Position numbers and translations under genes: made by a program. The notes under the pieces were generated by a model, which was not told the DNA's origin, did no database searches, and worked only from the letters and a program-made list of their open reading frames with translations. From NCBI RefSeq assembly GCF_021497885.1, contig NZ_CP046523.1:1407501-1471500 (forward strand): a stretch of DNA of 64,000 bases, given 5' to 3'. Source of the DNA: Streptococcus oralis (GTDB lineage Bacteria; Bacillota; Bacilli; Lactobacillales; Streptococcaceae). Below, one piece after another: positions 3,001 to 22,003 of this stretch. Every line of letters starts with the position of its first letter. Positions within the stretch are counted from its first letter, which is position 1.

Positions 3001-3715
3001 AGTACTTTGACTTGCTGATACAGAGGCGCTTGCTGATTGGCTTGCTGATACTGATGCTGAAGTTGATTGACTTGCAGATACTGATGCTGAAGCCGATTGG
3101 CTTGCAGATACTGATGCTGAAGCGCTTTGACTTGAGCTTACTGATGCGCTAGTTGATTGGCTTGAGCTTACTGATGCACTAGCTGATTGACTAGCTGATA
3201 CAGATGCTGAAGCTGAAGCACTTTGGCTGGCGCTTACTGATGCTGAAGTACTTTGACTTGCTGATACAGATGCTGAAGCTGATTGGCTTGAGCTTACAGA
3301 CGCTGATGCTGAACGACTTGCACTAAGCGAGGCACTCGCTGACGCACTCGCCGAACGACTTGAGCTTACTGAAGCTGAAGCTGAGCGACTTGCACTAAGT
3401 GAGGCACTCGCTGACGCACTGGCCGAACGACTTGAACTTACTGAAGCTGAAGCTGAACGACTTGCGCTAAGTGATGCACTCGCTGACGCACTGGCTGAAC
3501 GACTTGCGCTAAGCGATGCACTAGCTGAGGCACTTGAACTTTGGCTTCCTGATACAGAAGCGGATACGCTACTGCTCACGCTCGCACTTGCTGAGGCACT
3601 TTGGCTCGCATTTGCTGAACTTGATGCTGATTGGCTCGCACTGATGCTTGCTGAGATAGAAGCTGAAGAGCTTTGACTTGCAGATACAGAAGCTGAAGCT
3701 GATTGGCTAAGGGAT
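1..3715 (-). repeat. SRR2 serine-rich coding repeat block
   Basis: Over 1200 codons read in the adhesin frame as alternating Ser and Ala/Gln/Val/Ile/Asn, e.g. SQSASASVSASQS and SASNNQNSASIS. In-frame codons show no stop where checked. The first part encoded (about 3300-3540) uses shorter Ser-Ala units. Most of the rest is built from longer, nearly identical modules. The block continues past base 1, so its full size is unknown, and such arrays are prone to assembly collapse. Confidence 0.95.
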
Positions 3716-5916: not shown

Positions 5917-5947
5917 TTGTTTCCTTTCTTTTCATCAAAATGCGACC

Positions 5948-6283: not shown

Positions 6284-6315
6284 ACAAAAAAACCTTGACG
6301 AGCAAATCGTCAAGG
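6284..6315 (-). terminator. Intrinsic terminator after the gtfA-gtfB-asp4 unit
   Basis: Perfect 9-bp stem (CCTTGACGA / TCGTCAAGG) with a 5-nt loop, followed on the minus strand by a run of seven T. It sits 40 nt after the asp4-like gene. Confidence 0.85.
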
Positions 6316-6354
6316 TTCATCTTTTCTGGAGACCACCTCCATCCAGAAAAGTTC

Positions 6355-6531
6355 CTAAAAAAAGCGTCCCAACTGCATGAGTAGTGTGACCAAAAGAGTT
6401 ACGAGAAAGAGAACTCCGCCCAGCACGGCAATCATGCTAAAATCTTGCTTCTCCCTTTTTAGGGGTTTCTTTCGATTATCTAGCTGTTCTCGTATATGTT
6501 CTTGTAAAATGCTATTGTCCTTGTTAGACAT
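6355..6531 (-). CDS. asp4: Asp4-like small accessory Sec membrane protein
   Basis: A 58-aa protein with a polar, charged N-terminus (about 1-34) and one hydrophobic segment near 35-54 (SMIAVLGGVLFLVTLLVTLL), ending MQLGRFF. Size, single membrane span and position next to gtfB fit S. gordonii Asp4, a SecE-like partner of SecY2. Identity rests on context and architecture because so short a protein has little diagnostic sequence. The start was placed at ATG 6531 rather than the upstream ATG at 6582 because AAAAGGAGGAGCAC lies directly before it. No second small protein corresponding to SecG-like Asp5 is visible nearby. Confidence 0.65.
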   Translation of the reverse strand: MSNKDNSILQEHIREQLDNRKKPLKREKQDFSMIAVLGGVLFLVTLLVTLLMQLGRFF

Positions 6532-6599
6532 GTGCTCCTCCTTTTCTGTTGATAGAAAGGAACTTGCTTTCATCGAAAGCAAGCCCTTGTCTTATTAGC

Positions 6600-7928
6600 T
6601 TATAAAATTGACTTGTAGGCTTCCAGATCAGCCTGATTCGCCGCCTGTTTTTGCTTAGCAAGGGCAGCCTCCATCTCAGACGGAAGAGAGAGAACTCCCT
6701 GAATCTTACCTACCATGGCTGATACATTTTCCACCGGATAAATGTGGCTTTCTGCAACGAAACGACGATTGTGACAAGTCGTCTCAAAACTGAGAATCAG
6801 CATATTATTCTCAAAAGCTGTTCGACTACCATTGAGAATTTCATCACTGATATTGATATCCAGATACAAGTCACAGCGAGCAAAGAGCTCACTCACCTTA
6901 GCTGGACGAATATTAGGGTAGAGGGAAATATTCGGATAGCGATTTAATTCCATTAAACGACTTGACATCTCAGTAATCGCTCCAATATGGAAATGAACAT
7001 TTGGTAATTGAGTCAAAAGTGGTTCAATTTGCTCGATTTGGTCACTATTCGTCAGAATCAAAGCTTCTGGATTCATATTATTGAGGCGATGGTATTGATA
7101 GAGATAACCAACATTGCGGAAGTAACTCTTCTCTTTTGGTGTCGCAAGCTTGAGGATTTTATCATAAACTTGCTTGTCCTGTACTGCGATACGGATGTTG
7201 CGATGAGGCAACTGCATCGCTGCCTTCATGTTACCCGGCAACTCCTCTCCAATTGGCTCCTGCCAGAAGAGAATATCCTCTGCTCGTCCTTCTTTCGGAG
7301 TCATACCAACGGCTACTAAAAATGGTGTTGCTAGAGAATTGTAGATAATGCGATCTGTATCATACCCACGATAACGCAAGTAAAAGATTACAAATTCTTG
7401 CTTAGAATTGAAAATATGGCGTTTTCCATCAAGAGTTAAGATAATATCCTCTGTTAGATGATTTTCCATAATCACCGTTACGTTATCTTGATTAAAGTAG
7501 CGTGTATGAGTTGGACGTTGGGCATCATCATAGGTAATCTGTGCAAAGAGACGTCCCTTGCGATTGTAAATGTCTGCAGCGCGTACACGACCCTGATCAT
7601 CCAACCACTCGACTGCACGAACGCGACGTTCATGTGTCGGTTGACGGTAAAAGATATTGGCACGTTTCTTACCCATATCCAAGATTTCACCATTAACATT
7701 GCTCGAGCGAATTTCCCACAAATGAGGTTTCGGAACAAGGTTAAAATAAAGAGGTAGATCGTCCTCTGAGGCCACATCTCCAGTAAAGTAACTGTAAGGC
7801 GACTCGACATCAGGTGCGAGGTAGCCATCGTCTCGGATCACGACAACAGGACAGTCTAGCCCAGCTGCCTTAAGTGAACGTAGTAAATCAAAACTCGCTT
7901 GATCATAGCGTTCAAATAAACAAATCAT
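6600..7928 (-). CDS. gtfB: GtfB, glycosyltransferase co-subunit for SRR adhesin O-GlcNAcylation
   Basis: This 442-aa cytosolic protein matches the family length and the family N-terminus (MICLFERYDQASFDLL). GtfB pairs with GtfA to add GlcNAc to Ser/Thr of the unfolded SRR adhesin; GtfB is the substrate-binding subunit and lacks strong catalytic motifs of its own. It shares with GtfA the feature that a central beta-rich region precedes the second Rossmann half (compare FNSKQEFVIFYLRYRG here with FYSKQEFVAHFMRS in GtfA). It lies 27 nt after gtfA. The start is ATG 7928 with GAAAGGC upstream. Confidence 0.9.
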   Translation of the reverse strand: MICLFERYDQASFDLLRSLKAAGLDCPVVVIRDDGYLAPDVESPYSYFTGDVASEDDLPLYFNLVPKPHLWEIRSSNVNGEILDMGKKRANIFYRQPTHERRVRAVEWLDDQGRVRAADIYNRKGRLFAQITYDDAQRPTHTRYFNQDNVTVIMENHLTEDIILTLDGKRHIFNSKQEFVIFYLRYRGYDTDRIIYNSLATPFLVAVGMTPKEGRAEDILFWQEPIGEELPGNMKAAMQLPHRNIRIAVQDKQVYDKILKLATPKEKSYFRNVGYLYQYHRLNNMNPEALILTNSDQIEQIEPLLTQLPNVHFHIGAITEMSSRLMELNRYPNISLYPNIRPAKVSELFARCDLYLDINISDEILNGSRTAFENNMLILSFETTCHNRRFVAESHIYPVENVSAMVGKIQGVLSLPSEMEAALAKQKQAANQADLEAYKSIL

Positions 7929-7955
7929 AGTGTTTATGCCTTTCTTTTCGAATCC

Positions 7956-9485
7956 CTACTGATGCTGTGCAGATTGAACCAGATCGTACCAACGTTGAGC
8001 GATATGCTCATCAAGATATGGTTCTGCCACCTCGTAGGATACACGGGATAGATCTTCTTGGGAATGTTGAGTAAATAGCTGGACAATCTTTTCTGCGTAT
8101 TCCGTTGTCATTGCATCCAGATCATCTGGACGTGCCTCAGGAATCAAGTAACCATTTTCCCCATCACGGATAAAGGTTGGATTTCCATAACGTACATCAA
8201 AACCAATAATTGGCAGACCAGAGCCAACTGCCTCTAACAAGGTCAAACCAAATCCTTCACTTGTGGAGGCAGAGAGGTAAGCAGAGTAATTTCGATACAC
8301 ATCTGCCATGTGGTGATGCCCCATAAGACGGATATAGTCTTCTGCATTTAACTCATGAATCAACTGCTCCAACATGGCTCTTTCGCCACCCGTACCATAG
8401 ATATCAAAAGTAATTTCAGGTAATTGCTCATGTGCCTTCACTACAGAGTGAATCAACCAATCAATATGCTTTTCACTGGCCAAGCGCGAAGCTGTAATCA
8501 ATCCAAACGGCTTGCGCTCTCCTTCTGGATGACGCAATTGATCCAAACTTCCCACTGGAATAGTCAAGATTTCCTTTGGTTTGATGGTTGTATATTGGGC
8601 GAATTGTTCTTTGAGTAGGTTCGTTTGCGCATCGGTCGAGTTAATGATATAGTCCACTTCTTCGGCATGTTCAAACTGATACTCATAATAGTTATTCCAC
8701 AAAATATAGTCTTTCTCAGCAGGATTTTCACTAAAGTGGTCTGCATGAACGATTACGACTAGCTTTGCATCGCCCTTATTAGCAAAGATAGCTTGACCAA
8801 TATCTGTCTCTCGATCTAAAATCAACAAATCTTTGTCCGTCAGAGACAGACTTCTCATAAAATGCGCGACAAACTCTTGCTTAGAATAGAAAACATGATT
8901 TGGGAAACGATAGACTTGCGTTTCCTGTCTACCATCGACTTCATTGATGATTTCTTCATAGGCCACACTACCATCTTCATTGAGCCAGGTACGTTGATAT
9001 AATTGCGCATGACCATTCATCGGACTAAAATACTCAACAAAATTCTTCGTATAAGTGTAGTACTCTTTTTGAATCAGACAACCACGCGAAACAATTTCGG
9101 CGCGTTCAATCAACTCTTTATCCATATCACAGGCATAACAAGTTACAAAATCACCATCACCAAATACTAGTCGAATCGTCTTCATATCGGTGTCGCGGAT
9201 AATTTCGAGAGGCTCTTTATCGAAACTCGCTAAGACCTGCGCTAACGTATAGGTCGTCGGTGCAATTTTGACATCTGTAAAATACTGATAAAGCCAGATA
9301 ACCTCAGAATCTTCAAAGCCGATATTCTTTGTCAAATGTTCAATGTTATCAGCAGATATAAAATCCATAAAGATGAACTTCGCTTCTAAGCCAACACTAC
9401 GAAGCAATTTTGCACGGTAGATCTGCGCATATTCTACACCGCTACTCGCCCAGCCAATCCCCAAATTGATGTTATAAATTGTCAT
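7956..9485 (-). CDS. gtfA: GtfA, GT4-type glycosyltransferase for SRR adhesin
   Basis: The catalytic subunit of the GtfA-GtfB O-GlcNAc transferase, 509 aa. The N-terminus MTIYNINLGIGWASSGVEYA is characteristic. The C-terminal GT-B half carries the E-x7-E nucleotide-sugar motif at E410/E418 (EGFGLTLLE). The inserted beta-sheet domain (about 100-210) binds acceptor protein in known homologues. It acts in the cytosol before export. It lies 14 nt after the DivIVA-like gene, in one apparent unit with gtfB. Confidence 0.93.
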   Translation of the reverse strand: MTIYNINLGIGWASSGVEYAQIYRAKLLRSVGLEAKFIFMDFISADNIEHLTKNIGFEDSEVIWLYQYFTDVKIAPTTYTLAQVLASFDKEPLEIIRDTDMKTIRLVFGDGDFVTCYACDMDKELIERAEIVSRGCLIQKEYYTYTKNFVEYFSPMNGHAQLYQRTWLNEDGSVAYEEIINEVDGRQETQVYRFPNHVFYSKQEFVAHFMRSLSLTDKDLLILDRETDIGQAIFANKGDAKLVVIVHADHFSENPAEKDYILWNNYYEYQFEHAEEVDYIINSTDAQTNLLKEQFAQYTTIKPKEILTIPVGSLDQLRHPEGERKPFGLITASRLASEKHIDWLIHSVVKAHEQLPEITFDIYGTGGERAMLEQLIHELNAEDYIRLMGHHHMADVYRNYSAYLSASTSEGFGLTLLEAVGSGLPIIGFDVRYGNPTFIRDGENGYLIPEARPDDLDAMTTEYAEKIVQLFTQHSQEDLSRVSYEVAEPYLDEHIAQRWYDLVQSAQHQ

Positions 9486-9499
9486 ATTTGATTATCCTC

Positions 9500-10186: not shown

Positions 10187-10234
10187 TTTGCTCCCTCTAT
10201 TCCTTACTTATTCTGATTTACACCACTACTCCCC

Positions 10235-10243
10235 ATTGTAGCA
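10235..10243 (-). promoter_or_regulatory. Extended -10 promoter for the DivIVA-like/gtfA/gtfB unit
   Basis: TGCTACAAT on the minus strand is an extended -10 (TGN-TACAAT) with no good -35. The 11-mer TATGCTACAAT is identical to the core of the secY2 promoter. It lies about 50 nt before the DivIVA-like start and after a terminator, so this gene group is likely a separate unit. Confidence 0.55.
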
Positions 10244-10343
10244 TAAAATAGCGCAAATTGCTATTCTTTTCTAAGCTCCAAACAAGGAAAATATCCTAAG
10301 CTGCTATCAAGCAAAATCCGAACTTAGCTTAAAATCCATCTAT

Positions 10344-10380
10344 TTCTAAAAAAATGTCTGATTGATAGATCAGACATTTT
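10344..10380 (-). terminator. Intrinsic terminator after the GH1-like gene
   Basis: A 12-bp perfect stem (AAAATGTCTGAT / ATCAGACATTTT) with a 6-nt loop and an extended T-run on the minus strand. It closes the cytosolic-SRR/GH1 cassette and separates it from the DivIVA-like/gtf unit. Confidence 0.85.
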
Positions 10381-10441
10381 CAAAAGTAAAAATACGAACA
10401 CTACTTCTAGGGTAGAAGAAATTCAGTTATTACTTCCTATT

Positions 10442-11617
10442 TTAAAAATTTAGTTCCGTCCAAGTAAGCGGTGTATAGCCAAGCAATTCCACACCATCAT
10501 ACTCGACTGTTTTCACGATCTCTTGGATGTTTGTTTTCAATTCTTCAGTTGCTACGCTATTTGAATCATCCAAGACCACATCATCTTCCACGACGAAGAG
10601 TGGTTTTTGGTAACGATCGTAAAGATTGTTCATCACGAGACGAAGTCCCACAGAATCAATGCGATTTTGATTTTGGCCATTACTTGCATATTTGTTGACA
10701 AAAACTTCTTGGGAATTGCTTGATGCATAATAACTGAAGCTGACAAAGTCAATTTTCCCATCTCTTAGGACAAAGAGGTCGTCATTTTCAATATCCAAGG
10801 CGATTTGATCACGTTCCAAACGACGCAAAAAGTGATTTGGGTAGTATCCACGAACTTGCACGTCTGTAAACAAATAATTTTCCCTATCTTTGACTTCTGC
10901 TTCCATTACATCAATAGCATTTTCAGTTTGCTGACTGTAGTTTTTACTAACAACCATCATCCCACCAAACTGAAACTCTGGGTTGATTGCTTTTCCGAGC
11001 TTGATTGCACGTGCAGAAGCAACTAATTGATAATGAGCTGCTTGCCAAATCACCTGTTCTTGATTGTCATCTGCTCCAAAAGACAATCCTCCACCAAGAA
11101 ACGGCAAATGGTGCAAAACGTTGAACTCATTGAAGGTAATCCAATACTTCACTTTGTCCTTAAAGTACTGAAAGACAGCTTCTGCGTAACGCTCAAAGAG
11201 TTCGATCATCTTGCGGCTTTTCCAAGCTCCATATTTTTCGTATAGATTCAGTGGAAGGTCAAAGTGACTCAAGGTCACAATCGGTTCGATATCTTTTTCT
11301 AATACGTCATCGATGATTGCTTCATAATATTTCAACCCCTCTTCACTCGGCTGCAGCTCTTCACCATTTGGAAAGATGCGTGCCCAAGAAATCGAGATTC
11401 TATAGGCATTAAAACCCATTGATTGAATTAAATTCAGCTCTTCCGTATAATCTCTCTGACCTACTGAAGCAAATCTCCCTAGGATATCATAAGATCCTAA
11501 AGGTACATTTTTGTAGTCAACTGTTCCATTCAGAACTTCTATCCGAGATTGGTCAACTGGTAATACATCTGTAGTACCCAAACCTTTGTTACTATTTGAC
11601 ATCATATTTCTAATCAT
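10442..11617 (-). CDS. Truncated GH1 (6-phospho-beta-glucosidase-like) protein, probable pseudo-enzyme
   Basis: A 391-aa GH1-fold protein against about 460-480 aa for active 6-phospho-beta-glucosidases. Clear family motifs are AYRISISWARIFPNGEE (about 72-88), LSHFDLPL, the acid/base motif TFNEFN (compare TFNEIN in BglA types), and FTDVQVRGYYP. The nucleophile glutamate is kept in FVVEDDV, but the usual ENG is EDD. The N-terminal strand with the sugar-binding GGA..AHQ.EG motif is absent. The protein ends just after LLGYTP, so the final strand and the S-x-K-x-Y phosphate-binding loop are missing. This looks like an intact ORF for a binding or scaffolding protein rather than a working glycosidase (inference). 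It lies 51 nt after the cytosolic SRR gene. RBS AAAAGGAG precedes ATG 11617. Confidence 0.75.
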   Translation of the reverse strand: MIRNMMSNSNKGLGTTDVLPVDQSRIEVLNGTVDYKNVPLGSYDILGRFASVGQRDYTEELNLIQSMGFNAYRISISWARIFPNGEELQPSEEGLKYYEAIIDDVLEKDIEPIVTLSHFDLPLNLYEKYGAWKSRKMIELFERYAEAVFQYFKDKVKYWITFNEFNVLHHLPFLGGGLSFGADDNQEQVIWQAAHYQLVASARAIKLGKAINPEFQFGGMMVVSKNYSQQTENAIDVMEAEVKDRENYLFTDVQVRGYYPNHFLRRLERDQIALDIENDDLFVLRDGKIDFVSFSYYASSNSQEVFVNKYASNGQNQNRIDSVGLRLVMNNLYDRYQKPLFVVEDDVVLDDSNSVATEELKTNIQEIVKTVEYDGVELLGYTPLTWTELNF

Positions 11618-11668
11618 AGTGGCTCCTTTTGATTTTTATTATTTCTATTTAATGATTGCAAGTTCTGT

Positions 11669-14098
11669 TTAGAAGGATTTCTCATCTTCCCTTTTTTGAG
11701 TAATAGCAGCCAAACCAGACAATTCACTTGCAACATTTCTTAAGTCACGTGCTAGGGGTTGCGAACCTGGTCTGAGTAGGTGATAGAGTTGGCGTTCCGT
11801 CATCCTTAAATTTGTTCCATTTGATTCTGAATAGTGAGACAGATGTTTCAGAGAGGCTTGCAAATCTACATTCTTTATTGATTCCTCTCTATTTTCAAGC
11901 CCCTGTTGCTCCTCAGCAATATGTGCTTGAGACAATCCCTCTTCAGAAATTTCAGGTGTCATCACTTCTTGCACTTTTTGCTGGTGAGTTAGAGGGCTCA
12001 TATCCAGTTCAGAGAGGCTCTTATACAGACGTTCCGAAGCATGCAAGTCATGCGCGAATACTTCTGTCTCCGCCACACTCTGTCTATAGGAACCAAATTC
12101 TGATTCTAACATACTATAGGATTGAGATAGGGATGCTTTCCTTAAACTCACCGAATCAGCTACACTCTGACTTTGACTCAAGGATTCAGATATTTGTTGG
12201 CTTTGACTTAAGGATTCGGACTCGCTGAGATAGAGGTTTTCGCTCAAACTTAACGACTCGGACTCAGAAAGTAGATGAGAAATCATCTCACTCAAGGAAA
12301 GAGATTCAGAAATCGATTCCCATTCACTCTGGCTCAGGCTATAGAACTCGGACTCGGAAACACTCTGACTGGCTTGTTCTGATTCGGAATAGCTCCACCA
12401 CTCTGATTCTGAGTGACTTTGGGATTCGGATATGGATTCCCACTCACTCTGGCTTAGGCTATAGAACTCAGACTCGGAGACACTCTGACTGGCTTGTTCT
12501 GATTCGGAATAGCTCCACCACTCTGATTCTGAGTGACTTTGGGATTCGGATATGGATTCCCACTCACTCTGGCTTAGGCTATAGAACTCGAACTCGGAAA
12601 CACTCTGACTCGCTTGTTCTGATTCGGAATAGCTCCACCACTCTGATTCTGAAGAGCTTTGGGATTCGGATATGGATTCCCATTCACTCTGGCTTAGGCT
12701 ATAGAACTCAGACTCGGAGACACTCTGACTCGCTTGTTCTGATTCAGAAGAACTCCACCACTCTGATTCTGAGTGACTTTGGGATTCGGATATGGATTCC
12801 CACTCGCTCTGGCTTAGGCTATAGAACTCAGACTCGGAAACACTCTGACTGGCTTGTTCTGATTCGGAAGAACTCCACCACTCTGATTCTGAGTGACTTT
12901 GGGAGTCGGATATCGATTCCCACTCGCTCTGGCTTAGGCTATAGAACTCAGACTCGGAAACACTCTGACTTACTTGTTCTGATTCGGAGTAGCTCCACCA
13001 CTCTGATTCTGAAGTGCTTTGAGATTCGGAAATCGATTCCCACTCACTCTGGCTCGCTTGCTCTGATTCGGAATAGCTCCACCACTCTGATTCTGAAGAG
13101 CTTTGGGATTCGGATATAGATTCCCATTCACTCTGGCTCAGGCTATAGAACTCAGACTCAGAAACGCTCTGACTTGCTTGCTCCGATTCGGAAGAGCTCC
13201 ACCACTCTGATTCTGAAGAGATTTGGGATTCGGAAACGGATTCCCATTCACTCTGGCTTAAGCTATAGAACTCAGACTCGGAAACACTCTGGCTCGCTTG
13301 CTCTGATTCGGAAGAGCTCCACCACTCTGATTCTGAGTGACTTTGGGATTCGGATATGGATTCCCATTCACTCTGGCTCAGGCTATAGGACTCGGAGACA
13401 CTCTGACTTGCTTGTTCTGATTCGGAAGAACTACACCACTCTGATTCTGAAGAGATTTGGGATTCGGAAACGGATTCCCACTCACTCTGACTTAGGCTAT
13501 AGAACTCAGACTCGGAAACACTCTGACTCGCTTGTTCCGATTCACTCAAGGAAAGAGACTCTGAGTATGCAAGACTTTCACTCAAAGAGAATGCATCCGT
13601 ATCCTGACAAAGGGACTCCCCTGTCAAATGCTCAGAAACAGAGAGGCTATCAACCAAGGAAAGGGACTCAAATTCAGATTCTGAAGAAGAGACCACTAAT
13701 GAGTAGTTCTCAGACATGGACTCTCGAAGCGAGAATCCTTTTGCTGATATACTCTGGCTAAACGACTCACTGTACGAATCTGCGACAGAAAGGCTAAGGG
13801 AAGCTAAAGCGCTAGTTGACAAGCTCTGACTAACATCTCTTATCAAGTCAGCTACACCCAGACTGTTCCTTTCCTGAAAGTCTTCTAAGGCTTCCATGAC
13901 AGAAACTGATTCTGTTGGTAACTCAAGATCTTCACTAGCACTCAGAATAATTTCCTTTTGCTCTTTGAGTTTTCGACTAACGGGCTTTGATTTAGTTGCA
14001 TCCAGGCTACGGTAATCACTATCTTCCCTACCCTTTTGCTTAAACTTTGATATCAAACGTTTAAATCCCTTTAGCTCTTCGTTATTATTTTTGCTCAT
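11669..14098 (-). CDS. Cytosolic Ser/Glu/Trp-rich repeat protein, novel aSec-locus component
   Basis: An 809-aa protein of unknown function. It has no signal peptide, no KxYKxGKxW motif, no membrane segment and no LPxTG motif, so it appears cytosolic. A basic N-terminus (GFKRLISKFKQKGRE, 11-25) leads into Ser-rich sequence (about 85-190). About eleven 40-residue repeats follow (about 185-600), with units such as SESEQASQSVSESEFYSLSQ and SEWESISESQSHSESEWWSS, strongly acidic with regularly spaced Trp. A short SES/SLS block and a non-repetitive C-terminal part (about 660-809, with MTERQLYHLLRPG) complete it. It is an obvious potential substrate for the adjacent GtfA/GtfB because they act on cytosolic Ser-rich chains. 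It has its own consensus promoter just after secA2. RBS TTTGGAG lies 11 nt before ATG 14098. Confidence 0.7.
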   Translation of the reverse strand: MSKNNNEELKGFKRLISKFKQKGREDSDYRSLDATKSKPVSRKLKEQKEIILSASEDLELPTESVSVMEALEDFQERNSLGVADLIRDVSQSLSTSALASLSLSVADSYSESFSQSISAKGFSLRESMSENYSLVVSSSESEFESLSLVDSLSVSEHLTGESLCQDTDAFSLSESLAYSESLSLSESEQASQSVSESEFYSLSQSEWESVSESQISSESEWCSSSESEQASQSVSESYSLSQSEWESISESQSHSESEWWSSSESEQASQSVSESEFYSLSQSEWESVSESQISSESEWWSSSESEQASQSVSESEFYSLSQSEWESISESQSSSESEWWSYSESEQASQSEWESISESQSTSESEWWSYSESEQVSQSVSESEFYSLSQSEWESISDSQSHSESEWWSSSESEQASQSVSESEFYSLSQSEWESISESQSHSESEWWSSSESEQASQSVSESEFYSLSQSEWESISESQSSSESEWWSYSESEQASQSVSEFEFYSLSQSEWESISESQSHSESEWWSYSESEQASQSVSESEFYSLSQSEWESISESQSHSESEWWSYSESEQASQSVSESEFYSLSQSEWESISESLSLSEMISHLLSESESLSLSENLYLSESESLSQSQQISESLSQSQSVADSVSLRKASLSQSYSMLESEFGSYRQSVAETEVFAHDLHASERLYKSLSELDMSPLTHQQKVQEVMTPEISEEGLSQAHIAEEQQGLENREESIKNVDLQASLKHLSHYSESNGTNLRMTERQLYHLLRPGSQPLARDLRNVASELSGLAAITQKREDEKSF
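12300..13548 (-). repeat. 120-bp tandem coding repeats (40-aa Ser/Glu/Trp units)
   Basis: The motif cactctgact recurs at 12361, 12481, 12601, 12721, 12841 and 12961, exactly 120 bp apart, and then continues with shortened units. About ten and a half copies are present. One copy lacks 12 residues and another lacks 2, always in frame. The repeats are distinct in sequence and composition from the Ser/Ala repeats of the adhesin. Confidence 0.92.
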
Positions 14099-14133
14099 AA
14101 TATGATTTTCTCCAAAAATACAGTTATATCATC

Positions 14134-14162
14134 ATTATAAAGTCTACAACAGAATCTGTCAA
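14134..14162 (-). promoter_or_regulatory. Perfect-consensus SigA promoter for the cytosolic SRR/GH1 cassette
   Basis: TTGACA (14162-14157), 17-bp spacer, TATAAT (14139-14134), an exact match to the SigA consensus. It starts 5 nt past the secA2 stop codon. Strong constitutive transcription of the cytosolic repeat protein is predicted. Confidence 0.85.
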
Positions 14163-14166
14163 AGCA

Positions 14167-16554
14167 TTAGCCAAAGAAAACTTCTAACTTCCCAGAAGGC
14201 TTAATATTAATGTAACTCAATGCCATGTTTTTTATAATGTTTAGATTTATATCTGCATTCATTCTTTTGTATGATTTAAAAGCTTCTTTATGAAACTCAA
14301 AGACAGGATTTTTTTGGGCATACCCTTGACTAGATACCAAACCTTGAAATTGCTGTAAATAGTCAACTTGCTCAACCCAACAGTCATCTATCGCTCTCAA
14401 AACGACAGTTCGTTGAAATTGATTGAACAACTCTGAATCCTTGATTTTATCTTTTTTCTGCTGGTATTCTGAAACAAGGAGGTCAGATAAAAACTTTTTA
14501 ACTTGCCGTAAATCCGTGACATCTAGATCATCTGGAATATCCTCGCAGTAATAACTAATGTTATCCAAAACAAAGCGAAATAAATCCGCCCGCTCTTTAA
14601 ACGGTGTTTTACTTGTATAAATGTCCACTGCATCCGATAGGATAGACAAGAAATAAGTCAAATCAAAGTCTGGATGAGAGATGAGCTTATTACGCTTATT
14701 GTAGATAATCTGTCGCTGAATACGGATACTTTCATCATATCGTTCCGTTGAACGTCTGGAAGCCGCTGACGCGTTATCACTATTCTTCTGAGCCTCTTCA
14801 ACCGCATGTCTAATACGACGAGAAGTCAAATGAATCTTTTGTTTTTCCTCTGGTTTTGCAATTTCTTTGTGATAGTACTCACTAATCCATTTGCTACCAG
14901 ACTTGGAAATAAGATCATCCTCAAGAGAAATAAAGAATTTGCTCAACCCTGGAGCGCCTTGTCGTCCGGCACGACCGCGAAGCTGCAAATCCACTCGCTC
15001 ACTGGACATTCTCTCTGTTCCAACAACAGCAAGTCCACCCAACTCAGCAACCCCTTCTTCTAAGATAATATCTGTTCCACGACCTGCCATTGATGTTGCT
15101 ACCGTCACTGCAGAACGTCTACCAGCCAGGGCGATCATCTCAGCCTCTTTCGCTGCATTATGGGCGTTCAACACATTATGGGCGATTCCCTCTTGGAGTA
15201 AGAGCATAGAATAAATCTCAGACATTCCAACTGATCCTGTCGCAATTAAAACTGGCTGACCTTTTTTATGTAATTTTTTGATATACTCCAATGAAGCATA
15301 TAACTTTTGAGGAATCGTGAGATAGATTTCATCTGGATAATCAATTCGTAAATTGGGTTTTCGTGTAGGAACAACTACGACTCCCAAGTCGTAAACGTCT
15401 CTGAACTCATCCTCACAAACTTTACCAGTACCCGTCATCCCTGCTAATTTGGGAAACATTCTAAATAAATTTTGATAGGTAATAGAGGCCATCGAACGCG
15501 TTTCCAATGTGATTTTCACACGTTCTCTGGCTTCTAGTGCTTGGTGCAGTCCTGATTGGAGTTTATTTCCTTCCAAGAGACGTCCTGTCGCCTCATCCAT
15601 CAGTTTAACTTCGCCATTATCCACTGTGTACTGACGATCTTTTTCAAATAAGTGGTTAGCTCTCAAAGCTAGGTTAATTTGACGAATGAGCTGGTAATTA
15701 TCTGGATCATAGGCATTCTGAACGCGGAAATAAACCTCTGCTTCCTTTACTCCTTTTCTCGTCAACCATACAGACGTCCGAGTGGAGTCTAAATTAAAAT
15801 CTTCCCCTTCTTTTAGAGTTTTTACAAACTCATCACACGAGAGAAAGAGGTTGGATTGAACCCGAGGAGAACCTGAAATGATTAGGGGCATCTGCGCACT
15901 ATCTAGCAAGGCTGCATCTACTTCATCGACCAAACAAAAATAAAATTTTGGCAAAAACTTCTTTGATTGAGATGTCGCCAAGTTTTCTTCTAGGTAATCA
16001 AACCCTAACGCACTATGTGTTGTATAGACAATATCATTCTTATAGATTTGTTGTTTTTGAGGAATTTTAAGTTTTTTTGTCGGATCGTCCGAGACACCAA
16101 CCCCAACTGTCATTCCTAAAAATCGAAAAACGGGTGCCATTTGTTTAGCATCACGCGCTGCCAAATATTCATTGGCCGTGACTAGGATCGTACTTTTTTC
16201 CGTCAAAGCATTTAGGTATAAAGGAAGGATAGCTGTCAAGGTTTTTCCTTCCCCTGTTCTCATTTCTGCAATCTGATTGTCTTGCATAACCAAGGCCCCT
16301 AAAACCTGAACATCATAAGGATATAATCCTAATACACGCTTGGCTGCCTCACGAATGGTTGCGTACGCTTCTGGCAAAATGGACTGCAAGCTTTCTCCTC
16401 CAGAAAGGCGTTCTTTAAACCATTTTGTCTGAGCTTGCAGTTTCTCATTTGACATAGCTGCATAACTATCAGATAGTTTATTAACCTTCTCCAAAATCTT
16501 TTTGTAACGCATTAGTTTATAGGAGTTGGTCAAATTGAATCGTTTAGTTTTCAT
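14167..16554 (-). CDS. secA2: SecA2, accessory Sec translocase motor ATPase
   Basis: A 795-aa SecA-family ATPase that drives export of the glycosylated SRR adhesin through SecY2. Walker A is TGEGKT at 100-105. The DEVD Walker B is at 210-213. The helicase-like second motor domain includes TSMAGRGTDI and QLRGRAGRQG. The C-terminus (GKLEVFFG) lacks the Cys-rich zinc and lipid-binding tail of housekeeping SecA, as expected for SecA2. The start ATG 16554 lies inside the end of asp3 (11-nt overlap), showing translational coupling. Confidence 0.96.
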   Translation of the reverse strand: MKTKRFNLTNSYKLMRYKKILEKVNKLSDSYAAMSNEKLQAQTKWFKERLSGGESLQSILPEAYATIREAAKRVLGLYPYDVQVLGALVMQDNQIAEMRTGEGKTLTAILPLYLNALTEKSTILVTANEYLAARDAKQMAPVFRFLGMTVGVGVSDDPTKKLKIPQKQQIYKNDIVYTTHSALGFDYLEENLATSQSKKFLPKFYFCLVDEVDAALLDSAQMPLIISGSPRVQSNLFLSCDEFVKTLKEGEDFNLDSTRTSVWLTRKGVKEAEVYFRVQNAYDPDNYQLIRQINLALRANHLFEKDRQYTVDNGEVKLMDEATGRLLEGNKLQSGLHQALEARERVKITLETRSMASITYQNLFRMFPKLAGMTGTGKVCEDEFRDVYDLGVVVVPTRKPNLRIDYPDEIYLTIPQKLYASLEYIKKLHKKGQPVLIATGSVGMSEIYSMLLLQEGIAHNVLNAHNAAKEAEMIALAGRRSAVTVATSMAGRGTDIILEEGVAELGGLAVVGTERMSSERVDLQLRGRAGRQGAPGLSKFFISLEDDLISKSGSKWISEYYHKEIAKPEEKQKIHLTSRRIRHAVEEAQKNSDNASAASRRSTERYDESIRIQRQIIYNKRNKLISHPDFDLTYFLSILSDAVDIYTSKTPFKERADLFRFVLDNISYYCEDIPDDLDVTDLRQVKKFLSDLLVSEYQQKKDKIKDSELFNQFQRTVVLRAIDDCWVEQVDYLQQFQGLVSSQGYAQKNPVFEFHKEAFKSYKRMNADINLNIIKNMALSYINIKPSGKLEVFFG

Positions 16555-17578
16555 TCTCTCTCATCCACTCTTCAATCTTTTCCAAGTCAATTGCTTGAAG
16601 TAAAAATGACTTATCTAATAAATATTCAATGTTTGCTAGTTCACGTGGTCTAGTCTTCAAGTCCGCATATTCCTTAACTTTTGTCGGATTAAATTGCTGT
16701 AGCAATAATTCTTTAAAAATAGGCGGATTTACTCGACTACGGTAACGTTCCAGCAAGCGTTGATAGTCTAGTTCGCTTAAAAACTCATCCGTCACAAGAG
16801 CGTATGAATTTCCAAATTGTTTGGAGTAATGCAAGGCCGCAATATTAGAAATCGCTCCATAACCAACAAAAGCCACTTTTTCAAAAAGATGCTCTTGCGC
16901 TAATTCTTCAATCGTTTCAAGCAAGGTTTCGTAAAAACGTTCCTCCATGTATAGGAGCGCTTCTCTATAAGACGAATTAACAATCAATACATTTGAGAAA
17001 TGTTCACGAACACGTTCTGGAATAAAACCTGTTCGATTGAGTTCAGGTTCAGTAAAGCAAACATACATCGTTTCTTTCTCGGAATCCTGATGAAGCAAAT
17101 CAGAAATCCAGTAGCGATCCACTGTATAATCCGCCAACTGCTCCTCAGCAACATAAATCCCTTCAAAAAGGAAGCGATGACAACCCGAGCTGACTAACTG
17201 CACCTTATAATATTGTGTATTATCTGGAACGCATACGCTGACTCTCTCTCCCTGTTTAATGATCTGATTCGAAATTTCTTCGTCTCGAGCATCCATAAAT
17301 TCAACTTTTAAGTATGTTGAATTTTCTGGGATGGTTTCTATATGACTGCCAAAAATATAGTTTTGCCCACGTTTCAATTCAGGAAGCTGACTCGTATTGC
17401 GTAAGGCCTGATAGTTTGCCCGTGAATGCCATTCATGAATAACTGTCCCCGAAGGCATGAACTGGTTTTCATACAAAACATGACCACCATCTAACAGTTT
17501 GACAGATGAACCGTATAGATACTGAGATACGCTTTGGATATCCCAATAAGCAAAATAGACTTCTTCCTTGTATCTCAC
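16544..17578 (-). CDS. asp3: Asp3, accessory Sec export protein
   Basis: A 344-aa soluble protein matching Asp3 by opening sequence (KEEVYFAYWDIQSVSQYLYG) and order in the operon. Asp3 forms a cytosolic complex with Asp1 and Asp2 that is needed for adhesin export. The N-terminal half is beta-rich and carbohydrate-binding-like. The C-terminal half (about 190-340, with KVAFVGYGAISNIAALHYSK) is longer than in the shortest Asp3 proteins. It overlaps asp2 by 4 nt at its start and secA2 by 11 nt at its end. Confidence 0.9.
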   Translation of the reverse strand: MRYKEEVYFAYWDIQSVSQYLYGSSVKLLDGGHVLYENQFMPSGTVIHEWHSRANYQALRNTSQLPELKRGQNYIFGSHIETIPENSTYLKVEFMDARDEEISNQIIKQGERVSVCVPDNTQYYKVQLVSSGCHRFLFEGIYVAEEQLADYTVDRYWISDLLHQDSEKETMYVCFTEPELNRTGFIPERVREHFSNVLIVNSSYREALLYMEERFYETLLETIEELAQEHLFEKVAFVGYGAISNIAALHYSKQFGNSYALVTDEFLSELDYQRLLERYRSRVNPPIFKELLLQQFNPTKVKEYADLKTRPRELANIEYLLDKSFLLQAIDLEKIEEWMRENEN

Positions 17579-19152
17579 GATTTAAACTCCCTTTCAAAAC
17601 TATTCATTAATAGCGTTTTATATTGATTAAAGAACCATTCGACAATACCTTGTGTATCGTCGTTGTGTCGTCCAGTCAATCCCTTACTGATAACGCTGAC
17701 GCGGTAATCTCGCTGTCCTAACTCATCCAGCATATCAGGATAGGCCGACATATCATAGTCATCTTGATACATAAAGGAGATAATGAATTTTGTTCTTGAG
17801 AAATCAGCTGACTCAAAAGCCGTCCAGAAACGTTCGTTAAGCTGAGCTGTAGCTCCACTTGATAACTCCCCTATTGTGCGGTACACCAAATCCAGTGACG
17901 TTGGAAATCCTCCCGGACGAATAGTTGACTCATTTTCTGCCATATCTCCTAAGTTGACAAGAGGTTTTCCGACAATGACGGCATGAGGTTCCAACTTAGA
18001 ACTATAGTAAAGGGCGCCAAAAGTACCCATTGATAAACCTGACAAGGTCAGTTGTTCCTTCGTAAAACCGAGTTCATCTAAGCAGTTATGAACCACTTGG
18101 AGAAGCTTTTGTTCCAGCTCCTCCGATCCAAGATAGAATGCGCCCCCTTCTGAACGCGGATCCCCTACTAGTAAGAATGGCGATCCCAAATTATTCATCA
18201 TCCAGTATCCCTCGAATCCCTCTGCAGGACGGTACCCTGAAAAATAGATGTTCAACGGTGGTTTCAAATCTCCTGGATGGAAGAAATAAATCAGTTCTTC
18301 TCTATTTTTATCGCTAATTCGTTTTCCTCCGACTAACAAGTCTCCATAGCCTAGATGGGAGTCTCGATAGTGGCAGGGACCAAGTTTTACAATCCCTTGT
18401 CCCTTTGCTTGAATACTGATACTCAAATAATACGAATCATTTACATCTAACGTCAGAGGCCGATCAAAGCTCGTTTCATCATAAATCCATTCTTGCATGG
18501 GAGAATTTCCAGCTGGAAAACCTTTGACAACGTAGCGGATCGAACAACCTTCTGAAACCCTGAACTCAGGCCACAGATCTAAGGGCATCTCCCCACTCAG
18601 AAAAACATTATGTTGATAGGTCGCAATAGTCTGATAATCCTCGCCGTATCGGCCACACAAACGAAGGTAGTTTGTCCCTTCATAACTGATTTGACCCTCA
18701 AAAGATGGTGCAGCAACTAGATGATTAACACTTAGTTTCGTTCCATTTTGCTTGGAGAAAAAACCACGTGAAAATATATGTAGCATCTGCTCTGGATTTT
18801 CAAAATTTGTTTTCACAGCTTTTTTGCGCAAAAGAAATCGTTCCAGCGTTTTTGTAGTGATTTGACAACGCTCATGATAGAACAGACGGTAAACCTGAAT
18901 TTTCTGATCCAAGATAGTGACATACTCTAAATATTCAGCAGTATCTACCAACACGACATCAAACGGTCTGTCTACTTTTTTCTTTTTTTTCCCGTTTTCC
19001 GCCTCAACTTCTCTATTTAAGATCCCGATATCTTCTGGCAATAAAGAGACGATGTCTTCTGGTTTGACAAATGTCCATTTTATATTACTAGGAATTTCAT
19101 ATTGCTCCTGCCAATTTTCATCAGCAATTTGCAAAACACTAATTTTTTTCAT
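17575..19152 (-). CDS. asp2: Asp2, accessory Sec protein with acetyltransferase-type hydrolase fold
   Basis: This 525-aa protein has an alpha/beta-hydrolase half. The nucleophile elbow GLSMG holds S374, and a candidate catalytic His is H496 (LTGRHNDDT). In S. gordonii, Asp2 O-acetylates GlcNAc on the adhesin and is also required for export. The catalytic residues here look intact, so acetylation is expected. The N-terminal half (about 1-290) is the beta-rich accessory domain. It overlaps asp1 by 14 nt and asp3 by 4 nt. Confidence 0.93.
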   Translation of the reverse strand: MKKISVLQIADENWQEQYEIPSNIKWTFVKPEDIVSLLPEDIGILNREVEAENGKKKKKVDRPFDVVLVDTAEYLEYVTILDQKIQVYRLFYHERCQITTKTLERFLLRKKAVKTNFENPEQMLHIFSRGFFSKQNGTKLSVNHLVAAPSFEGQISYEGTNYLRLCGRYGEDYQTIATYQHNVFLSGEMPLDLWPEFRVSEGCSIRYVVKGFPAGNSPMQEWIYDETSFDRPLTLDVNDSYYLSISIQAKGQGIVKLGPCHYRDSHLGYGDLLVGGKRISDKNREELIYFFHPGDLKPPLNIYFSGYRPAEGFEGYWMMNNLGSPFLLVGDPRSEGGAFYLGSEELEQKLLQVVHNCLDELGFTKEQLTLSGLSMGTFGALYYSSKLEPHAVIVGKPLVNLGDMAENESTIRPGGFPTSLDLVYRTIGELSSGATAQLNERFWTAFESADFSRTKFIISFMYQDDYDMSAYPDMLDELGQRDYRVSVISKGLTGRHNDDTQGIVEWFFNQYKTLLMNSFEREFKS

Positions 19153-20737
19153 TTCCTTTTAATTCCTTTATGGTATTTTTCCACATATCGACAATCTCAC
19201 CCCTTGTATACTGTTCAATCTTCTTGACTGAGTGAACTAGAGATTGATTCCAATGTTCTAAGTTTGTGAGGTAGTATAAGAGTGCCTCTTCGAAATCTGA
19301 AATATCATCTAGAATCCAACCATTTTCTCCATGCTTCACATAAGAGGAACTATACAAGTTAACCTGAGGGATCCCTCCACTAATGCCAGCGATTTGAGTC
19401 AACACATCAGCTGGAGTTCCCAAATCTAGTATAATACGAACGTACTTCAGAACTTTAATCAAATCGCTGTCGCTATGAATGGTCTCAATATCAATCCGTT
19501 CGCGAACAATCTCCTCTTCATCATCAAGAACTCGGTTTTCACCTCTCGCTCTCTTCTCTTTATCAACAAAAATCAATTCTTGTTCATATTCTGGCTTAAG
19601 AGATCGATAGCTTTCTAGTACCTGTTTTATATAGGCCTCTCGGCCAAAATCCTGACTTTGTGTTCCAACCAGCAAGTCAATCCATTCATTTTTCAACATC
19701 ATTTCAAACAAAGTCGTAAACACATATTGAATTTGATCTGCTGGTAGATTGTCGTAATTGACGTAAACAATTAACTCTTTTTTTCTTTGACTATGCCCTA
19801 GGTTTAGATGAGTATCATAAGGCGGAATCTCATAAAATCCTGGCAACTGTTCTAGATCCACATTAGCTGCTATCGTTTCAATTTTATTTAAACTATCAAC
19901 AACGAAGAACGGCGTGTCTGTCAAATCCGTTAGCAGCTGCTCCTGGTTTGTAATTGGATAGCGATCTCCAAAAAAAGACAAGATAACATGATGGTTTTCC
20001 TTAATTTTTTGGAAAAAGTGATTGTGCTGCACATCTGACGAAATCACAATCGTATCATCCTTGGTTAGCGCAGAAGTTAGATACTGATCTAGTTTTTCAT
20101 TGATCAATTCTTCGATATCTCGGTAAACTTCTTTTGCAAATGTAGCCTGCGCCTCAGGGTTGATAAGCACTTGATGATTTTCTGTACCCAAAAATTCCCT
20201 AAACTGCCATGTACCTTGTAAATTTAAATAATCTTGGTAGTAAGGTTGATCATTTTCAAAATAGATGATACTTGAAACAAATCCACGATCATCAAAAATT
20301 AGCTGATGATTTGTCTGCCCACCCTCAAAATAAGTAATATCAAAGAAATTACCTGTTTGTGAAAAGTTAATTTTAGCATAGTGTTCTTGATTTAAATATA
20401 CCTCAATCATAAAAGGAGTATAGAAGAATTCTACTCCTTGAGGCCATTTAATATCTTCCAGACGAATTTTACGTACAGATACATCCGTCAGACCTTGTAT
20501 GGTATCAAATAGATTCCATACAGTTTCTGGCAATATTCTTTGCTGATAAAGAAAGGTTCGAATATGTGGTGAATAGTTCAAAATCAGAGTGGTATTTGCC
20601 TCTCCTGATTGCTGAAACATTCGCAGCAAATTCACCGCATCATCAAACATCATATTTTTAGACACGTAATAGAAAGGCAGGGTGGTAGAATACCATTTCC
20701 GATCTTGTCTATACCAAGATGGTACAAAGTAAAACAT
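19139..20737 (-). CDS. asp1: Asp1, accessory Sec protein (GT-B-like fold)
   Basis: The 532-aa Asp1, recognised by MFYFVPSWY at the N-terminus and by its place directly after secY2. Asp1 has a degenerate glycosyltransferase (GtfA-like) fold and works with Asp2 and Asp3 in handing the glycosylated adhesin to SecA2. A conserved late segment (about 440-500) resembles the sugar-binding half of GT-B proteins (LDLGTPADVLTQIAGISGG). It starts 6 nt after secY2 ends. Confidence 0.93.
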   Translation of the reverse strand: MFYFVPSWYRQDRKWYSTTLPFYYVSKNMMFDDAVNLLRMFQQSGEANTTLILNYSPHIRTFLYQQRILPETVWNLFDTIQGLTDVSVRKIRLEDIKWPQGVEFFYTPFMIEVYLNQEHYAKINFSQTGNFFDITYFEGGQTNHQLIFDDRGFVSSIIYFENDQPYYQDYLNLQGTWQFREFLGTENHQVLINPEAQATFAKEVYRDIEELINEKLDQYLTSALTKDDTIVISSDVQHNHFFQKIKENHHVILSFFGDRYPITNQEQLLTDLTDTPFFVVDSLNKIETIAANVDLEQLPGFYEIPPYDTHLNLGHSQRKKELIVYVNYDNLPADQIQYVFTTLFEMMLKNEWIDLLVGTQSQDFGREAYIKQVLESYRSLKPEYEQELIFVDKEKRARGENRVLDDEEEIVRERIDIETIHSDSDLIKVLKYVRIILDLGTPADVLTQIAGISGGIPQVNLYSSSYVKHGENGWILDDISDFEEALLYYLTNLEHWNQSLVHSVKKIEQYTRGEIVDMWKNTIKELKGNEKN

Positions 20738-20743
20738 ATCCCT

Positions 20744-22003
20744 CTATTCTCCTTTAAATTCTAATTCTTTGTGGTAGTAAGTCCCAATTCTCAAGATACG
20801 TATTTCTTCATGCAAAGGCAAGAGCATACTGACTAAAATGATCAATGTACTTGGTATAGTCAAAAGCAAATTTGGAAGAGGTAGGAAGAAATTAATGAAA
20901 TAGGGTAAACCAATAAAAACGATCAGGTAGAGTGCTCCTACGTTAGATTGTAAGGAAATGTAATGTTTCAAAACTTTTAAAGTTGCTTTCCCAGGCTGGA
21001 TATAATCTAGGTATTCTCCTTGACGTTGTAAACGTTTCGCTGTTTCTTCTGGTTCTAAGTTGATATAGGCAAATAAAATTGCAAGAAGATAGATAGCAAG
21101 CAGGTAAAAGGCTAAACTTAGGGGTTTTGTAAAGTCAAATAAACTACCAAAATTTTTTGTAAAACCATGTCCAAACCAGTCTAATACCAACTGAAGCAAC
21201 ATAATAACACTCGAGGCATACATAATAGGCATTCCCCCAGAGGGAAGAAATTTGATAGGGAGGTAAGATTTGCCATAGTAACGACTACTTAACATGACTC
21301 GATTTAGAGGCAAACGAATTTCAGCTCTCTCGCAGACCACAGCGATATAGCCCAAGAGCAAAAATGAGATCGCCGCACCTACTAGAAAGGCTAATCCTTC
21401 TTTAGAAAAAACAGATTGTCCTATCAATACCACTAATTGGTTAGCAAATTGTAGCAGAATTCCTGAAATAATAATAATTGTCTGCCCGCCTACTCCCTTG
21501 CTAACATTCAAACCAGCCAACCAGATAATAACAAAGCTTCCTGCTACAACAGTTGCTAGTACAGCCATATTATAAATCCAATCATCTACAAGAAGCAAAA
21601 AGCGTCCATTTTCCGAACGAGCCGTGTACATAACAGCTATCCCTTGTAACACGGAAAAAATTAAAGTGAGAATCTTTTGCACAAAATCCGCTTTTTTCAA
21701 TGACCAGGACTGGATATTCCAACTTTTATTCAAGTTGATGACCTGCCAGACAATCATCGTCGTAATCCATGGACCTAATCCCAGAGAAAACATGGAAATC
21801 TGAGAGACATCTACTCCTGCCAAAGAATACAAATAGGCCAAGGGATTTTGCTCAGTTATTTGCGAAAAACCTGTATTGCCATTGTATCCTGGAAGTAAAA
21901 TATGGCGACCAAGTAAATAGATCGCAATGATCAAAATTGTAAAAATTGCTCTTCGGAAAAAAATACTTGTTCGTTTCTGTTTCTTAAGACCGAAATGTTT
22001 CAT
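20744..22003 (-). CDS. secY2: SecY2, accessory Sec translocase channel
   Basis: A 419-aa polytopic membrane protein with about ten predicted spans, shorter than housekeeping SecY as usual for SecY2. It has SecY-like segments (GQTIIIISGILLQFANQLV; RLQRQGEYLDYIQPGKAT). It forms the pore dedicated to the SRR adhesin. It is first in the secY2-asp1-asp2-asp3-secA2 unit. RBS AAAGGATGACAG precedes ATG 22003. Confidence 0.95.
   Translation of the reverse strand: MKHFGLKKQKRTSIFFRRAIFTILIIAIYLLGRHILLPGYNGNTGFSQITEQNPLAYLYSLAGVDVSQISMFSLGLGPWITTMIVWQVINLNKSWNIQSWSLKKADFVQKILTLIFSVLQGIAVMYTARSENGRFLLLVDDWIYNMAVLATVVAGSFVIIWLAGLNVSKGVGGQTIIIISGILLQFANQLVVLIGQSVFSKEGLAFLVGAAISFLLLGYIAVVCERAEIRLPLNRVMLSSRYYGKSYLPIKFLPSGGMPIMYASSVIMLLQLVLDWFGHGFTKNFGSLFDFTKPLSLAFYLLAIYLLAILFAYINLEPEETAKRLQRQGEYLDYIQPGKATLKVLKHYISLQSNVGALYLIVFIGLPYFINFFLPLPNLLLTIPSTLIILVSMLLPLHEEIRILRIGTYYHKELEFKGE

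Follow-up and report, generated by a model that had tools for sequence, protein, structure and literature searches.

A leaderless serine-rich repeat protein and two partners form a conserved module in accessory Sec loci of Streptococcus oralis and Streptococcus cristatus

We analyzed a 64,000-nt stretch of DNA from Streptococcus oralis (NCBI RefSeq assembly GCF_021497885.1, contig NZ_CP046523.1, positions 1,407,501 to 1,471,500; hereafter the window) that contains an accessory Sec (aSec) locus. Here, a serine-rich repeat (SRR) protein of 809 aa with neither leader nor anchor is the first of three proteins encoded by a module that lies between secA2 and gtfA; the other two are a truncated GH1-like protein and a DivIVA-like coiled-coil protein, named DivL. 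A preliminary description of the window had put the SRR gene between secA2 and the glycosyltransferase genes. secA2 does adjoin it, but the genes for the GH1-like protein and DivL, which that description did not mention, separate it from gtfA. The earlier observation was right and undersold: the SRR gene is one of three in a conserved module, for whose mechanism we offer a hypothesis below. In the sense of transcription, the locus reads BgaA-like beta-galactosidase, secY2, asp1, asp2, asp3, secA2, leaderless SRR, GH1-like, DivL, gtfA, gtfB, a small hydrophobic open reading frame (ORF) and the canonical SRR adhesin (Table 1). The adhesin, with its KxYKxGKxW leader, is a gene separate from the leaderless SRR gene.

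The SRR ORF encodes exactly 809 aa on the minus strand; the plus strand over the same interval is rich in stops in the frame read. A 180-residue N-terminal region is followed by about 10–11 repeat units of 40 aa and then by a conserved C-terminus. At the DNA level, the repeats form two overlapping arrays with a period of 120 bp (93% and 86% matches), and in the protein SEWES occurs 11 times and SEWWS or SEWCS 10 times. Residues 187–640 are 41% Ser, 22% Glu and 6.6% Trp, a composition that qualifies as a Ser-rich repeat region as defined for SRR protein (SRRP) adhesins. The whole protein carries a net charge of –123. Its maximum 19-residue Kyte–Doolittle mean is 0.83, and we found no LPxTG motif, membrane segment or KxYKxGKxW leader in it. 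An in-frame stop lies 10 codons upstream of the ATG, so there is no hidden upstream leader. ORF analysis, hydropathy and motif scans thus confirm the protein as first described, that is, as an 809-aa Ser-rich repeat protein devoid of leader, KxYKxGKxW motif and anchor. It matched no Pfam family at E ≤ 0.001, and among NCBIfam models matched just those for Ser-rich proteins, far below their cut-offs. SRRP adhesins (GspB, Fap1, PsrP, SrpA; TIGR03715 leader) share with it the Ser-rich repeats and a secA2/secY2/asp1-3/gtfAB locus. The window protein differs from them in lacking the KxYKxGKxW leader and the LPXTG anchor, in the acidic Ser/Glu nature of its repeats, and in having conserved ends and partner genes of its own.

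The SRR N-terminal region matched in 21 of 284 Streptococcus genomes, which takes the observation beyond chance. Matches to DivL occurred in 45/284 genomes at E ≤ 0.001; those with E ≤ 1e-54 came from the same 21 genomes as SRR, and the remaining 24 genomes gave E values between 1e-7 and 1e-3. The GH1-like profile matched in 279/284 genomes, since ordinary GH1 enzymes are common. At 667 bits or more, however, there were 30 copies, solely in the 21 module genomes, and the next match, a full-length enzyme, scored 432 bits (among the matches listed, best first). GtfA scored above its cut-off in 178/284 genomes, and all 21 module genomes have a GtfA match at E ≤ 1.3e-171; the module is thus a minority feature of GtfA-positive genomes. 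Nor is it general to aSec loci: in genomes G248 and G211, gtfA directly follows secA2. Across the wider order (375 genomes from 80 genera, drawn evenly), real matches to the SRR profile were confined to G000 and G201. A match in G508, set aside as low complexity, covered positions 90–167 only, with five occurrences inside a single open frame (E from 2e-4 to 9e-4).

The 21 genomes fall into three clades. Clade A comprises 8 genomes, including the window, with named members being S. oralis or Streptococcus sp.; clade B comprises 9, named S. cristatus or Streptococcus sp.; and clade C consists of G121, G125, G131 and G230, with named members being S. oralis. The 14 named loci belong to S. oralis (5, one of them subsp. 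dentisani), S. cristatus (6) and Streptococcus sp. (3, one of them oral taxon 058 F0407).

All 21 genomic SRR homologues, the window copy counted, begin at the same leaderless N-terminus. Nine were aligned, and the eight other than the window protein are 46–95% identical to it in the N-terminal region. Neither the window protein nor the 20 other homologues have a KxYKxGKxW-type leader. No wall anchor (LPXTG plus membrane segment) was seen in the 21, whose maximum Kyte–Doolittle means are 0.65–1.44, with five C-termini outside view (three at contig ends, two in broken frames). Protein searches with the N-terminal and C-terminal regions, which covered proteins of about 445–1415 aa, returned 65 proteins each, with identical ids. 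None of the SRR homologues retrieved has a signal peptide, proteins longer than 1415 aa being covered through the N-terminus, which was also the query for the genome search. The idea of a 5'-truncated adhesin was therefore rejected: both ends, searched separately, gave no leader-bearing version, with a longer protein sharing the C-terminal region alone lying beyond the search range. A profile built from the N-terminal alignment retrieved 25 further proteins, all of 97–312 aa. One of these, P0091, seems to fuse SRR to an LPXTG anchor; we discounted it as a chimera of the assembly, because its joints carry the peptides CIRDR, VYKRQ and SYTHL, which we take to be translations of sequencing adapters. 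Together, these searches support the view, also held in the preliminary description, that the SRR protein does not look like an adhesin that has lost its 5' end.

Both ends and a Ser/Glu-rich middle are conserved across the family. The acidic 40-aa units with regular Trp stand for the window protein but fail as a family feature: Trp content is 3.7% in the window, 1.1–1.5% in clade B and 0–0.2% in clade C, and a function for the Trp repeats was dropped on this ground. Near the N-terminus, residues 8–25 form a candidate amphipathic helix with a hydrophobic moment of 0.63 in the window (shuffle p about 0.01). Values of 0.63–0.70 (p about 0.01) were obtained for the clade A and B members tested, and a weaker one for G121 (0.46, p = 0.045).

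The intergenic gap that separates secA2 from the SRR gene contains TTGACA-17-TATAAT, the sole 12/12 match among 39 promoter-like sites in the 17.2 kb from 5500 to 22700. Shuffled sequences also yield 39 promoter-like sites, so the perfect site alone is noteworthy. An identical perfect consensus precedes the SRR start in 20/20 other module loci (21/21 with the window), those without secA2 included. Judging from this consensus match, the SRR gene probably has a promoter of its own, of the sigma-70 type.

We then compared gene order and integrity. secA2, SRR, GH1-like, DivL and gtfA are colinear on one stretch in 16 of the 21 genomes, and G201 is compatible with this order across a contig gap. 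G093 and G128 are colinear with interrupted frames. G019 is colinear, its GH1-like gene and DivL being separated by a 6.6-kb insert (L058:10932-17579; ORFs of 135, 818, 475 and 539 aa, the last by eye maybe a transposase), possibly a restriction or defence element. G121 keeps the order without secA2; here an LPXTG gene and ORFs resembling transposases interrupt the stretch from the GH1-like gene to DivL (L069). In the other three clade C genomes, the DivL-gtfA-gtfB block lies away from asp1-3-SRR, and both are retained. G125 has asp1-3, SRR and GH1-like together, with DivL on the same scaffold at a distance of some 565 kb; in G131, one contig ends in SRR and another starts with GH1-like, with DivL some 554 kb along the latter; and in G230 the three genes lie on three contigs, the upstream neighbours of DivL being unrelated. 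Because the separated parts are all retained in G125, G131 and G230, linkage alone does not explain their co-retention, which argues for a working link between them. The SRR frame itself is intact at both ends in 16/21 genomes, runs to a contig end in three (G131, G201, G230) and is broken in two (G125, G128). These two assemblies are 83–86% complete, and neighbouring genes are broken as well. Intact clade A frames encode 737–825 aa.

The GH1-like protein matches its Pfam profile over positions 60–405 of 453, and its residues 56–384 of 391 align with residues 72–425 of the 479-aa BglA (PDB 2xhy). Unlike BglA and other GH1 6-phospho-beta-glucosidases, it thus appears to lack the first and last parts of the barrel. 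Copies in the 21 module genomes are 74–100% identical, the one in G125 being partial, and their open frames span 395–430 codons (657 in G125, with runs of N) versus 470–515 for ordinary GH1 genes, among the matches listed. E164 and E344, which we take to be the catalytic glutamates of GH1, are invariant in 7/7 aligned GH1-like proteins, including two paralogues. Where BglA has EN, the GH1-like protein has ED; NE164 and E344 are kept in module copies, and N163 is replaced by K in a GH1 paralogue. The AF2 model of the protein is poor (mean pLDDT 44.9). Its nearest full-length GH1 relatives, in G161 and G156, lie by eye beside a gene resembling those of the phosphotransferase system and hisS, with no SRR gene. 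Klotho and beta-Klotho (PDB 5van, 5w21) are GH1 relatives that appear among the matches to the protein; these are extracellular animal receptors that act as binding proteins, not enzymes. The GH1-like protein is probably not an ordinary glycosidase.

DivL resembles the DivIVA family in its N-terminal stretch and long coiled coil. All nine DivL members scanned, of 21 known, matched PF05103, with a best E of 4.1e-6. The AF2 model has a helix from residue 7 to 133 (127 residues) and is good there alone. DivL differs from the DivIVA family in having a tail of its own, mostly disordered, and in being encoded in an aSec locus.

How might these proteins act? SRR proteins receive their glycans from GtfAB in the cytosol, ahead of export, and Asp1-3 are found together with SecA2 at the membrane; in an S. 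gordonii secA2 mutant, SRR protein retained in the cytosol is still glycosylated, and Asp2 and Asp3 bind the substrate (PMC5578698, in the part available to us). Since glycosylation takes place in the cytosol, a Ser-rich protein that is not exported should meet GtfAB, and perhaps Asp1-3. Given the amphipathic N-terminus and the DivIVA-like partner, a positioning scaffold is the most economical reading. We tentatively propose that the SRR protein works as a scaffold in the cytosol, is probably glycosylated, and brings the machinery for glycosylation and export to one site. The amphipathic SRR N-terminus and DivL would tether the complex to the cytosolic face of the membrane. The acidic Ser-rich middle would receive GlcNAc from GtfA/GtfB and would thereby gather GtfAB, Asp1-3 and SecA2/SecY2 at that place, and the GH1-like protein, probably no longer an enzyme, would bind the SRR C-terminal motif or sugars. 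The outcome would be adhesin fibrils produced and exported at one side of the cell. More speculatively, an intracellular SRR glycoprotein, a pseudo-glycosidase reader and a DivIVA-like coil might constitute the landmark that decides the site of aSec fibrils, and with it the one-sided tufts of S. cristatus and S. oralis subsp. dentisani; we hold this to be possible but doubtful. In the portion of PMC9446765 accessible to us, a paper on corncob structures, S. cristatus is described as bearing its fibrils in tufts, and the SRRP fibrils of S. oralis subsp. dentisani as asymmetric (monolateral); the sources it cites are Handley 2005 and Ronis 2019, the title of the second referring to the production of monolateral SRRP fibrils. 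In favour of the proposal are the identical set of 21 genomes for SRR and DivL, to which the truncated GH1 is confined among the matches listed, the retention of both separated blocks in G125, G131 and G230, the host link to one-sided fibrils, which the preliminary description had not noted, the promoter consensus in 21/21 loci, the leaderless state of the homologues and the S. gordonii findings.

Several observations weigh against this proposal. The link to tufts is built on species names, not on strains assessed for both traits, and one-sidedness is not established for every S. oralis strain. G093, which resembles the published monolateral strain F0392, although identity with it is not established, has a DivL frame interrupted at a homopolymer tract (L066); the other 20 DivL matches are open. 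This interruption may reflect sequencing error or on/off switching. The same genome has three KxYKxGKxW ORFs, all very long; one spans 5059 codons. DivL is also a remote DivIVA relative: the window copy scores 23.7 bits, below the PF05103 gathering score of 28, and DivL gave no PDB match by profile at E ≤ 0.1 or by Foldseek at E ≤ 0.001.

Further points of this kind come from G121, a member of clade C. The four module loci of this clade lack secA2 and secY2 yet retain asp1-3, SRR, GH1-like, DivL and gtfAB; we read the asp3–SRR interval as holding a short remnant that resembles the end of secA2. An additional aSec locus, equipped with secY2, asp1-3 and secA2 of its own, is found in G125, G131 and G230. 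G121, by contrast, keeps the module in a genome with neither SecA2, SecY2 nor KxYKxGKxW proteins. In this assembly (one contig, rounded 100% completeness), there is no SecA2 above cut-off (the best match, 889 bits, is at the level of housekeeping SecA), no SecY2 (best 206 bits, the level of SecY) and no KxYKxGKxW match genome-wide, and Asp2 is single. The co-occurrence with secA2 and gtfAB on which the preliminary description turned thus holds for GtfA (21/21) and not for secA2 and secY2, gone from the locus in four genomes and both absent from G121. Incomplete aSec clusters and pseudo-SRRPs were noted earlier in other strains (PMC6973325, in the text we could consult).

In three clade C genomes, seven genes are free of stops, with pairwise dN/dS of 0.03–0.32 (SRR: first 130 codons only). 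The SRR N-terminal region gave 0.06–0.13 within clade C; the GH1-like gene gave 0.05–0.10, between clades only and at high dS. Codon changes assigned to one branch, synonymous/nonsynonymous, number 83/77 for G121, 159/98 for G131 and 405/200 for G230. The G121 branch looks relaxed, which is also adverse to the scaffold proposal (83/77 versus 564/298 in the two siblings, Fisher p = 0.0013). Seven control genes near secA lean the same way (359/67, 355/46 and 270/34; p = 0.036). A neutral ratio is about three nonsynonymous changes per synonymous one, and G121 lies below that. Its pattern would be compatible with slow decay or with a diminished role where export is missing. By these codon comparisons, the module genes are under purifying selection in most lineages compared.

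The last adverse point is a second SRR + GH1 pair. All nine clade B genomes have an additional truncated GH1 gene elsewhere, 51–52% identical. We inspected its neighbour in two of them, G020 (L116:5947-10051) and G026 (L117:9492-13362). In both, the paralogue is preceded by a leaderless Ser-rich ORF (963 and 885 aa, respectively), and the pair lies outside the aSec locus, with no aSec genes found nearby and DivL not adjacent. Both Ser-rich genes stand behind the same perfect TTGACA-17-TATAAT. The 963-aa protein (P0092) shows no hydrophobic segment, with a maximum Kyte–Doolittle mean of 0.93, and no LPxTG. Against the window SRR C-terminal motif it scores 44, with 34 the best of 2000 shuffles (other clade members p 0.0025–0.015); likeness to the N-terminus is weaker (p = 0.0015; others 0.015–0.046). 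Kinship of the two proteins is argued from these shared ends, as BLASTP aligned them in their Ser-rich parts alone (E = 0.36). The core common to both cassettes is SRR + GH1-like, and DivL belongs to the aSec version. From the shared motif, the SRR C-terminus may be a site for the GH1-like partner. The dependence on a whole aSec system implied in the preliminary description is not supported in that form, given clade C with G121 and these off-locus SRR genes.

Such a pair raises the question of whether SRR and GH1-like form an independent cytosolic system (a scaffold for sugar sensing or storage, for instance) that merely resides in the aSec locus and borrows GtfAB. The off-locus cassette, with its promoter consensus and shared C-terminal motif, speaks for this, as does the persistence of the module in clade C without its translocon genes. 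Yet GtfA is present in all 21 genomes, no copy was found outside GtfA-positive genomes, DivL is co-retained with gtfAB, and the BLASTP alignment of the two SRR proteins is limited to Ser-rich parts. We regard this alternative as a minority possibility, one to be taken seriously.

A decoy is less probable, and we consider it unlikely. Here, a non-exported GtfAB acceptor would absorb GlcNAc transfer and GtfB/Asp binding and so set the level and length of adhesin glycans, with the partners regulating the sink. A Ser-rich, acceptor-like chain in a gtfAB locus, a perfect promoter consensus and the action of GtfAB in the cytosol before export (PMC5578698, as far as available) would all suit such a role. 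It leaves unexplained, however, the DivIVA-like partner in 21/21 genomes and the conserved SRR ends, and the module is retained in G121, where no adhesin with an aSec leader is encoded. That the gene is a drifting relic of an adhesin stalk, its leader and anchor lost, is very improbable and already disfavoured. Length does vary among close relatives, as noted for clade A, and frames are broken in G128 and G125; but the breaks fall in incomplete assemblies with broken neighbours, the other frames are intact or stop at contig ends, the promoter consensus is kept in 21/21 and N-terminal dN/dS within clade C is low. Least probable of all is a surface protein exported without a classical leader, for example as partner-bound cargo of the aSec machinery, which the position among export genes might suggest but which sits poorly with the 21 homologues, where neither anchor nor hydrophobic segment appears to the extent that their ends are visible, and with retention in G121, a genome without the accessory translocon.

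Coordinates of the locus are collected in Table 1. The small ORF downstream of gtfB presumably occupies the position of asp4/asp5 in other loci. Asp4 and Asp5 are small membrane proteins; like other accessory aSec genes, they resemble the module as extra genes in some aSec loci. The extended Asp3 was tried as a marker of the module and rejected: it is strong only in the 21 module genomes, yet distant relatives (18–32% identity) occur in 15 others, so it is not exclusive. In G131, the second aSec locus encodes an Asp3 of 146 aa, versus 344 in the window. An LPXTG gene similar to the BgaA-like one lies upstream of asp1 in G125, G131 and G230. Elsewhere in the window, 37459-39102 encodes a protein that combines choline-binding repeats with Lipoprotein_Ltp domains at its C-terminus and has long tandem repeats of periods 33 and 24, and 40991-47161 a YSIRK-type protein resembling M26 IgA1 proteases, with tandem repeats of 81 bp.

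Table 1. Features of the aSec locus, in order of transcription (positions in the window)
Feature	Position	Strand	Basis or remark
BgaA-like LPXTG beta-galactosidase, 2413 aa	22681-29922		directly upstream of secY2
secY2	20744..22003	-	TIGR02920 246.5 bits, just below the 249.6 cut-off; PF00344
asp1	19139..20737	-	TIGR03713
asp2	17575..19152	-	TIGR03712
asp3, 344 aa, C-terminal extension of ~200 aa	16544..17578	-	TIGR03711 over 11-141
secA2	14167..16554	-	TIGR03714, 1085 bits
Promoter-like site of leaderless SRR gene	14134..14162	-	TTGACA-17 nt-TATAAT, directly past secA2 stop codon
Leaderless SRR protein (P0001), 809 aa	11669..14098	-	ORF; Pfam/NCBIfam scans
SRR conserved N-terminal region, residues 1-180; candidate basic amphipathic helix 8-25	13559..14098	-	alignment, hydrophobic moment
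SRR 40-aa acidic Ser/Glu/Trp tandem repeats	12303..13543	-	two overlapping TRF arrays
SRR conserved C-terminal motif region	11684..11794	-	similar ends in three clades and paralogue P0092
GH1-like protein, 391 aa, apparently without first and last parts of GH1 barrel	10442..11617	-	Pfam Glyco_hydro_1, E = 1.1e-67
DivIVA-like coiled-coil protein (DivL), 228 aa	9500..10186	-	PF05103, below gathering score
gtfA	7956..9485	-	TIGR02918 743.5 bits, above cut-off
gtfB	6600..7928	-	TIGR02919 528.9 bits, above cut-off
Small ORF, one hydrophobic segment (by eye)	6355..6531	-	no NCBIfam match
Canonical SRR adhesin, KxYKxGKxW leader; leaves window at left end	1..5916	-	TIGR03715, above cut-off

We found no description of the module in the searchable literature, outside which Ronis 2019 and Handley 2005 lie, and the combination of aSec, serine-rich repeat and DivIVA brought up, in the texts as far as accessible, nothing but work on S. 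aureus genome co-adaptation. In the parts of the literature examined, serine-rich repeat proteins are exported adhesins or pseudogenes; here, a conserved Ser-rich protein appears to stay inside the cell, together with two partners. Whatever its function, the pair of leaderless SRR and truncated GH1 proteins constitutes a system in which the SRR component is covered by no Pfam family. Clade C, in which SecA2 and SecY2 are lost from the locus while Asp1-3, GtfAB and the module are kept, offers a natural experiment on what these parts do without export. If the SRR protein does place the export machinery, it would provide a genetic handle on the one-sided fibrils of some oral cocci, a trait linked in print to the corncob structures of dental plaque.

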